64,000 bases of DNA from assembly GCA_038881895.1 (NCBI GenBank), contig JAVZOV010000001.1, positions 124,001 to 188,000 of the forward strand. The letters are read 5' to 3'. Each line of letters begins with the position of its first letter. Position 1 is the first letter of the stretch. A program made the translations under genes and the position numbers. This document shows, in pieces, positions 23,645 through 40,059 of this stretch. Below the pieces are notes generated by a model. The model worked only from the letters and a program-made list of their open reading frames with translations, was not told where the DNA came from and made no database searches. The DNA comes from Thermoprotei archaeon. GTDB taxonomy: Archaea; Thermoproteota; Thermoprotei; Gearchaeales; WAQG01.

Positions 23645-24955
23645 TCAAGGTATCAGTCTATCAACGTCTCTAGGAAACATTGTGACCTCTTTAATGTTCT
23701 TTTTACCTGTCAATGTTAACATTAATCGTGATAATCCTAATCCAAACCCAGCATGTGGTGGTGCACCACTGCTTAAGTATTTTATGAATATTTCAAAGTC
23801 TGCTGGATTGAGACCTCTTTTTAAGAGGTTTTGCATGAATAAATCTTTATCTGTGATTCTTTCAGATCCTGATGCTATCTCTAACCATTCGTAAATTAGG
23901 TCGAACGCTTTACATACTTCAGGTTTTCTGGGGTCTGGTTTAGTATAAAATGGTCTTAATTGTGAAGGCCAATCAATTATGAAATAAAATTGTGAGGCAA
24001 ATTCTTCACCGAGAGCTTTCATCTGAGGGGTTCCGAAATCCTCACCCCAAATCATCTCGATTCCTTTGCTTTTTACTATTTCTACTGCCTCATCATATGT
24101 GATGCGTTTGAATGATGAGTTAATTGAGGGTAGTTTATGGTTTAGTATTTCTAACTCTTTTTTGTTATTCTCTTTAACTTTCTCTATGACATATTTTACT
24201 AGGTTTTCAAGCGTTTCAACAATCTCATGCATATCCACAAAAGCTTCCTCTACATCAACGGAAACAAATTCAGTTAAATGGTAAGTTGTTCTAGATTTTT
24301 CAGCTCTGTAAAACAGGCCTATCTCGAATACTCTTTCAAAAGCACCAGCCAGCATTTCTTTATATAATTGAGGACTCTGCGCCAAGAAAACTTTTTTATT
24401 AAAATAGTCAACAGTAAAAAGGTCTGCTCCTCCCTCTGAAGCATAGGCTATTATACGTGGACTTATCATCTCTATATACCCATTTCTCCACAAATATTCT
24501 CGCATTGCCATAAGTGCTGTAGTTTGAATTTTAAAAATAGCTTGATTATCTGCCAATCGTAGACTGAGATATCTCGCATCAAGCTTTGTGTCTAGATCAG
24601 CTGGTGTTTTTCCAGCGACATCAAGAGGGAGGGGATGAATTGCTCTTGAAAGAATTTTTATATTATTTGGCATAATCTCGTAACCCAGTTTTGCAATCTC
24701 CGATTTAACTACAGTTCCCTGAACTTTTATCACATCCTCATGATGAAGTCTTAATGCCATTTCAGTCAATTCCTGTTTACTTTGTTTAGGAATCGTGATC
24801 TGAGCAAAACCACTGCGATCTCTTAGTATAATAAAAATAAATTTAGCAGTATCTCGTACTTCATGAACCCAACCGTATAAAGTCACGTTTGAACCAACCT
24901 TTTCTGGTATTTCGGATATTAACGTTCTCTCTCTTCTCACATTAATCCTCTCCAC
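23645..24955 (-). CDS. aspS: Aspartyl-tRNA synthetase (archaeal type)
   Basis: 436 aa class II synthetase. The N-terminal OB-fold binds the anticodon (VTLYGWVHEVRDTAKFIFIILRDRSG). Motif 2 is FYRAEKSRTTYHLTEF, and motif 3 is GFGLGLSRLMLTLTGKKNIKE at the C-terminus. The enzyme attaches Asp to tRNA-Asp, and archaeal forms often also charge tRNA-Asn; the residue that decides this cannot be settled here. It abuts the KH-like gene upstream with no gap and is likely in one operon with Alba. Confidence 0.95.
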   Translation of the reverse strand: MERINVRRERTLISEIPEKVGSNVTLYGWVHEVRDTAKFIFIILRDRSGFAQITIPKQSKQELTEMALRLHHEDVIKVQGTVVKSEIAKLGYEIMPNNIKILSRAIHPLPLDVAGKTPADLDTKLDARYLSLRLADNQAIFKIQTTALMAMREYLWRNGYIEMISPRIIAYASEGGADLFTVDYFNKKVFLAQSPQLYKEMLAGAFERVFEIGLFYRAEKSRTTYHLTEFVSVDVEEAFVDMHEIVETLENLVKYVIEKVKENNKKELEILNHKLPSINSSFKRITYDEAVEIVKSKGIEMIWGEDFGTPQMKALGEEFASQFYFIIDWPSQLRPFYTKPDPRKPEVCKAFDLIYEWLEIASGSERITDKDLFMQNLLKRGLNPADFEIFIKYLSSGAPPHAGFGLGLSRLMLTLTGKKNIKEVTMFPRDVDRLIP

Positions 24956-25965: not shown

Positions 25966-26110
25966 TCTTGGTCTTGTGCTTGATATTTTATGTTTGTTCA
26001 CTTCAACAATACTTTAATTCTGTACTCCTCCGTCTTTTAATACATGACGAACGAATTAGGGATAACAGGTAGAAATGCTTAAATCTTCTAAAATATTCAT
26101 TCTTTTAGGC

Positions 26111-26201
26111 GCCCCGTTGGTGCAGCCCGGTAGCATTGGCGGCTGTCACCCGCCAGGCCCGAGTTCAAAGTAGATGCGAACAAATCTCGGACGGGGCGCC
26201 A
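26111..26201 (+). tRNA. tRNA-Asp (GUC) with T-loop insertion, CCA encoded
   Basis: Acceptor GCCCCGT/ACGGGGC (26111-26117 with 26191-26197), D stem GTGC/GCAT, anticodon stem GGCGG/CCGCC with loop CTGTCAC (anticodon GTC at 26145-26147), T stem CCGAG/CTCGG, discriminator G and encoded CCA (26199-26201). The T-loop is 22 bases (26164-26185) instead of 7: TTC and AAAT are at its ends, with about 15 extra bases between them. The most likely reading is a non-canonical archaeal intron near tRNA positions 57-60. All other tRNA elements are intact. Confidence 0.92.
26167..26181 (+). other. Probable 15-nt intron in the T-loop of tRNA-Asp
   Basis: Removing aaagtagatgcgaac restores the standard loop TTCAAAT. 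The exact ends can slide by 1-3 bases because A's flank both sides. GTTC (26163-26166) and GAAC (26178-26181) can pair, which could shape a splice-site bulge. Introns at this position are known in some Thermoproteota. Confidence 0.7.
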
Positions 26202-39947: not shown

Positions 39948-40059
39948 GCGGGGGTGCCCGAGATAGGACGAAGGGGCGGGACTTAAGATCTATCATGAAG
40001 GGGTTTAAGAAGAAATCCCGTGGCTAAGGCCATCGTGGGTTCAAATCCCACCCCCCGCA
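39948..40059 (+). tRNA. tRNA-Leu (UAA) with canonical 37/38 intron
   Basis: Acceptor GCGGGGG/CCCCCGC, D stem GCCC/GGGC, anticodon stem CGGGA/TCCCG, anticodon TAA at 39984-39986, long type II variable arm (GTGGCTAAGGCCATC) and T arm GTGGG-TTCAAAT-CCCAC, discriminator A. No CCA is encoded. A 27-nt intron occupies 39988-40014, after position 37; removing it gives the standard loop CTTAAGA. Followed by the IS607-like remnant at 40135-41557. Confidence 0.93.
39988..40014 (+). other. Intron in tRNA-Leu at the canonical 37/38 site
   Basis: 27 bases between g37 and a38. Splicing by the archaeal endonuclease at a bulge-helix-bulge is expected; the two exon halves rejoin to CGGGACTTAAGATCCCG. Confidence 0.85.

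Follow-up and report, generated by a model that had tools for sequence, protein, structure and literature searches.

A predicted 15-nucleotide intron in the T-loop of the only tRNA-Asp(GUC) gene found in a Thermoprotei archaeon

Results

The window analyzed in this study is a 64,000-nucleotide stretch (G000:C1:124001-188000) of a 1.75-Mb assembly of a Thermoprotei archaeon, which consists of 7 contigs and is estimated to be about 97% complete. A tRNA-Asp(GUC) gene lies at 26111-26201 on the forward strand, and its cloverleaf was read from the sequence as GCCCCGT-TG-GTGC-AGCCCGGTA-GCAT-T-GGCGG-CTGTCAC-CCGCC-AGGC-CCGAG-TTCAAAGTAGATGCGAACAAAT-CTCGG-ACGGGGC-G-CCA. All seven pairs of the acceptor stem are formed, the D stem has three Watson-Crick pairs and one G-U, and the anticodon stem (5/5) carries the loop CTGTCAC with the anticodon GUC. 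The T stem, CCGAG/CTCGG, is likewise fully paired (5/5), and G73 is followed by a CCA encoded in the gene. The T-loop, TTCAAAGTAGATGCGAACAAAT, is 22 nt long instead of the usual 7. These results verified the original prediction in its coordinates, stems, anticodon and loop length. A TATA-like element recognized by eye, CTTAAAT (26078-26084, forward strand), is situated about 27-33 nt upstream of the gene as a putative promoter; similar elements, also judged by eye, precede other tRNA genes of the genome. On the opposite strand, about 1.2 kb away, a gene at 23645-24955 encodes a class II aminoacyl-tRNA synthetase of the D/K/N family, probably AspRS.

The single tRNA-Asp(GUC) gene that was found is interrupted by 15 nt in its T-loop, and excision of these nucleotides restores a complete tRNA. 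When AGTAGATGCGAACAA (26169-26183, between Sprinzl positions 58 and 59) is taken out, the T-loop becomes TTCAAAT, the consensus of the class. The 5' exon (26111-26168) then comprises positions 1-58 and ends in TTCAA, and the 3' exon (26184-26201) comprises positions 59-73 plus the CCA. The raw gene was reported neither by ARAGORN nor by Rfam cmscan at the gathering score, and a whole-genome search with RF00005 at E<=10 also failed to find it. After removal of the 15 nt, ARAGORN recognized a tRNA-Asp(gtc) of 76 nt.

A CAAA repeat flanks the insert on both sides; five splice registers, from 55/56 to 59/60, thus yield one identical mature RNA. Only the 58/59 register gives a perfect 4-bp central helix of a bulge-helix-bulge (BHB) motif, in which G53-U54-U55-C56 (GTTC, 26163-26166) pairs with GAAC inside the predicted intron (26178-26181). 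The inner hairpin, GU AGAU GC (26170-26177), is weak, with two convincing pairs (G-C and U-G). The 5' bulge, AA^A, has 3 nt. With the T stem kept in register, a 3' bulge of 5 nt, AA^AUC, results at the cost of the top T-stem pair; a 3-nt bulge is obtained only where the T stem slips to 2 bp. The central helix of 4 bp is therefore in register with both splice sites, while the 3-nt bulges on both sides that define a strict BHB are not formed. Because of the lost T-stem pair and the 5-nt 3' bulge, the motif was classed as a relaxed BHB. The original prediction had asked whether the GTTC/GAAC pairing would permit a normal BHB: the pairing is real and a relaxed BHB forms around it, but a strict one does not. 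It had also placed an intron near positions 57-60, and within this range 58/59, with its enlarged 3' bulge, is the best-supported junction.

In a blind scan, in which each BHB-like segment was excised and the product tested by ARAGORN, removal of 15 nt after position 58 ranked first. When the same design was searched for as a strict DNA pattern, only the tRNA-Asp gene and two other sites matched, the latter coincidental and in regions that look protein-coding. A perfect 4-bp central helix also occurs in about 5-7% of random 15-mers, so the GTTC:GAAC pairing supports an intron but is not decisive alone. The isolated BHB fold lies 0.9 kcal/mol above the minimum (-4.0 versus -4.9). Given this energy gap and the frequency of chance helices, structure alone would not settle the reading of the insert as an intron. 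RNAfold on the full precursor was uninformative, as even the spliced tRNA-Asp was not folded as a cloverleaf.

Pattern searches for T-loop introns covered 81 genomes of the class. The tRNA-Asp genes of G048 and G034 have T-loop introns at 59/60, those of G054 and G058 have D-loop introns, and that of G042 is interrupted near the variable loop. Further 59/60 T-loop introns were found in tRNA-Tyr of G027, G037, G069 and G071, and in tRNAs of G021, G031 and G048. All T-loop introns found in the class are at 59/60, apart from the one under study and two in G079. The latter lie in two tRNA-Arg genes (L134 and L136) and show the layout of the tRNA-Asp insert, namely GTTC:GAAC pairing, a 58/59 junction and a 5-nt 3' side (AGATC in G079, AAATC in tRNA-Asp); they differ in intron length (18 nt), in their inner helices of 3-4 bp and in their tRNA-Arg host. 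The similarity of these two 18-nt introns to each other suggests that introns have been copied between tRNA genes. The original prediction had regarded a T-loop intron as a rare, diagnostic trait, which was not borne out, since canonical 59/60 introns occur in many tRNAs of the class, including one in the same genome.

These comparisons also bear on the exact site of cleavage. Cleavage of the same intron might instead follow one of the other equivalent registers, such as 59/60, with no change in the mature tRNA; the CAAA repeat and the prevalence of 59/60 junctions outside G079 would agree with this. Only one of four central pairs can form at 59/60, however, against four of four at 58/59, and the 58/59 layout is seen twice in G079, which makes use of another register improbable.

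The whole assembly, at its 97% completeness, contained no second tRNA-Asp gene in a BLAST search with the spliced sequence. Besides the tRNA-Asp gene itself, the sole match was the 29-nt T arm of an elongator-type tRNA-Met gene; this uninterrupted T arm is identical to that of the spliced tRNA-Asp, CCGAGTTCAAATCTCGG. No second tRNA-Asp was present among the 44 RF00005 matches, whose anticodons were read by eye. The claim that this is the only tRNA-Asp, made from the window, thus held for the assembly. GAT and GAC codons are in normal use in the genes adjoining tRNA-Asp. Taken with the lack of another copy, this means that the gene has to be functional, barring a copy in the missing 3%. Within the 97%-complete assembly, it should therefore be a functional, single essential copy and no pseudogene. 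A pseudogene disabled by the insertion, with its functional counterpart in the up to 3% of the genome unseen in the 7 contigs, is very unlikely, given that the stems, anticodon and CCA are all intact and that the insert is compatible with a BHB.

At least a dozen further tRNA genes of this genome look interrupted: those for Lys(UUU), Phe, Val(GAC), Ser(UGA), Ser(GGA), Ser(CGA), Pro(CGG), Glu(UUC), Tyr, Met, Trp and Leu(UAA) were recognized by eye. Because a blind two-intron scan chose implausible exons for several other tRNAs, intron positions except those in tRNA-Asp and tRNA-Pro(GGG) were also read by eye. In tRNA-Val(GAC), tRNA-Phe and tRNA-Ser(UGA), the apparent interruption is near the junction of the acceptor and D stems (about positions 5-10), an unusual site. 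In the window, tRNA-Leu(UAA) (39948-40059, forward strand) has an anticodon-loop intron and is found by Rfam and missed by ARAGORN. The tRNA-Pro(GGG) gene (L123, L130; G000:C4, about 64966-65086), missed in the RF00005 search, has two introns, each with a full 4-bp central helix: one of 26 nt in the anticodon loop and one of 19 nt in the T-loop at 59/60. The latter forms a strict, textbook BHB with a TTCA:TGAA central helix, a 4-bp inner helix and a 5-bp outer helix. Thus, the T-loop intron of tRNA-Asp is not the only one in its genome. The tRNA-Asp genes of G048 and G034 share with tRNA-Pro(GGG) the strict BHB, the TTCA:TGAA helix, the 59/60 position and an additional anticodon-loop intron, whereas the tRNA-Asp studied here has the T-loop intron only. 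That the 15 extra bases arose by assembly or sequencing error has very little probability, as one would not expect an error to generate a fitting BHB in the correct register, and the genome has many other tRNA introns as well as a second T-loop intron.

Two genes of the genome match PF01974, the splicing endonuclease family (L036 and L037). L036, the predicted catalytic alpha subunit, is closest to the subunits of Aeropyrum, Sulfolobus and Pyrobaculum among PDB chains. Its alignment covers the catalytic residues Tyr, His and Lys, and its GKPK lies over Aeropyrum K44-P45-R46, the Crenarchaea-specific loop, with the lysine included. In the printed alignments, L037 lacks the catalytic His, as expected for a structural beta subunit. 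The genome thus appears to encode a broad-specificity (alpha-beta)2 endonuclease with the lysine of the Crenarchaea-specific loop. A role of K44 in this loop has been described (PMC6379350, PMC12397907), and (alpha-beta)2 enzymes excise introns with relaxed BHBs, including T-loop ones (reviewed in PMC6379350 and PMC4090602). The distance between a gene for RtcB (L096) and the PF01974 match of L037 is about 0.6 kb. The two genes are located together at about 119.2-121.7 kb of G000:C2, and a gene for a UbiA-like prenyltransferase adjoins L037.

Discussion

The T-loop insert of tRNA-Asp(GUC) is very probably an intron, which would form a relaxed BHB, be cut by the splicing endonuclease and have its exons joined by RtcB; it was probably gained recently in a limited lineage. 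The proposal of a T-loop intron is supported by the lack of another tRNA-Asp, the perfect spliced form, the relaxed BHB and the endonuclease that the genome appears to encode. In the proposed pathway, pairing of G53-U54-U55-C56 with the intronic GAAC would fold the precursor into the relaxed BHB. The endonuclease with its two subunits would cleave the 5' side at AA^A and the 3' side at AA^AUC, and ligation of the exons by RtcB would produce the loop UUCAAAU. The D-loop/T-loop elbow could then form, and the T-loop could be modified. A tRNA-Asp that works with the 22-nt loop retained is scarcely credible: in an expanded T-loop the elbow contacts would be lost, and the loop left after splicing, TTCAAAT, is the consensus of the class.

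The tRNA-Asp genes of the same-family genome G001 and of the same-order genomes G002-G004 have no intron, which suggests a local gain. On the modest basis of these four near genomes, a recent acquisition limited to this lineage is probable; possibly, the intron was instead lost in all near relatives.

An anti-integration role of introns in tRNA genes has been proposed by Randau and Soll. Sulfolobus spindle-shaped viruses are known to use tRNA-Asp(GUC) as an attB (PMC4090602). Conceivably, selection favored the insertion for its disruption of a site in the T arm of tRNA-Asp where viruses or plasmids integrate, and the 58/59 GTTC:GAAC intron is a distinct, recurrent type in the class; this combined proposal is unlikely. 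Viral contigs were scanned for the att site with two long patterns, and neither the intron-free nor the intron-bearing T arm of tRNA-Asp gave a match. A pattern of the 18-nt 3' exon had three matches in viral contigs, none in a tRNA-like context. Blocking of integration by the intron is possible but unsupported, and amounts to a guess.

T-loop introns are known at 53/54, 56/57 and 59/60, with lengths of 11-129 nt (PMC4090602), and permuted tRNAs of Thermofilum are joined at 59/60 (PMC3218864). Like the non-canonical T-loop introns of Crenarchaea (PMC4090602), the tRNA-Asp intron is short (its 15 nt are within the known range), has a relaxed BHB, and occurs in a host with a predicted (alpha-beta)2 endonuclease and many non-canonical tRNA introns. 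It differs from them in its best register (58/59), its enlarged 3' bulge and its minimal inner helix. The position 58/59 is not named in the list of PMC4090602, which ends with "etc."; since this list is open-ended, no new intron position is claimed here. The tRNA-Asp intron is a new example of an already known kind.

In sum, the T-loop insert accounts for the failure of standard tRNA finders to detect the only tRNA-Asp found in this genome. With the predicted intron, the endonuclease substrates known so far would extend to a T-loop intron that is both short and weakly structured. Considering the uninterrupted tRNA-Asp genes in the same family and order, it would be a usable case for the study of recent tRNA intron gain.
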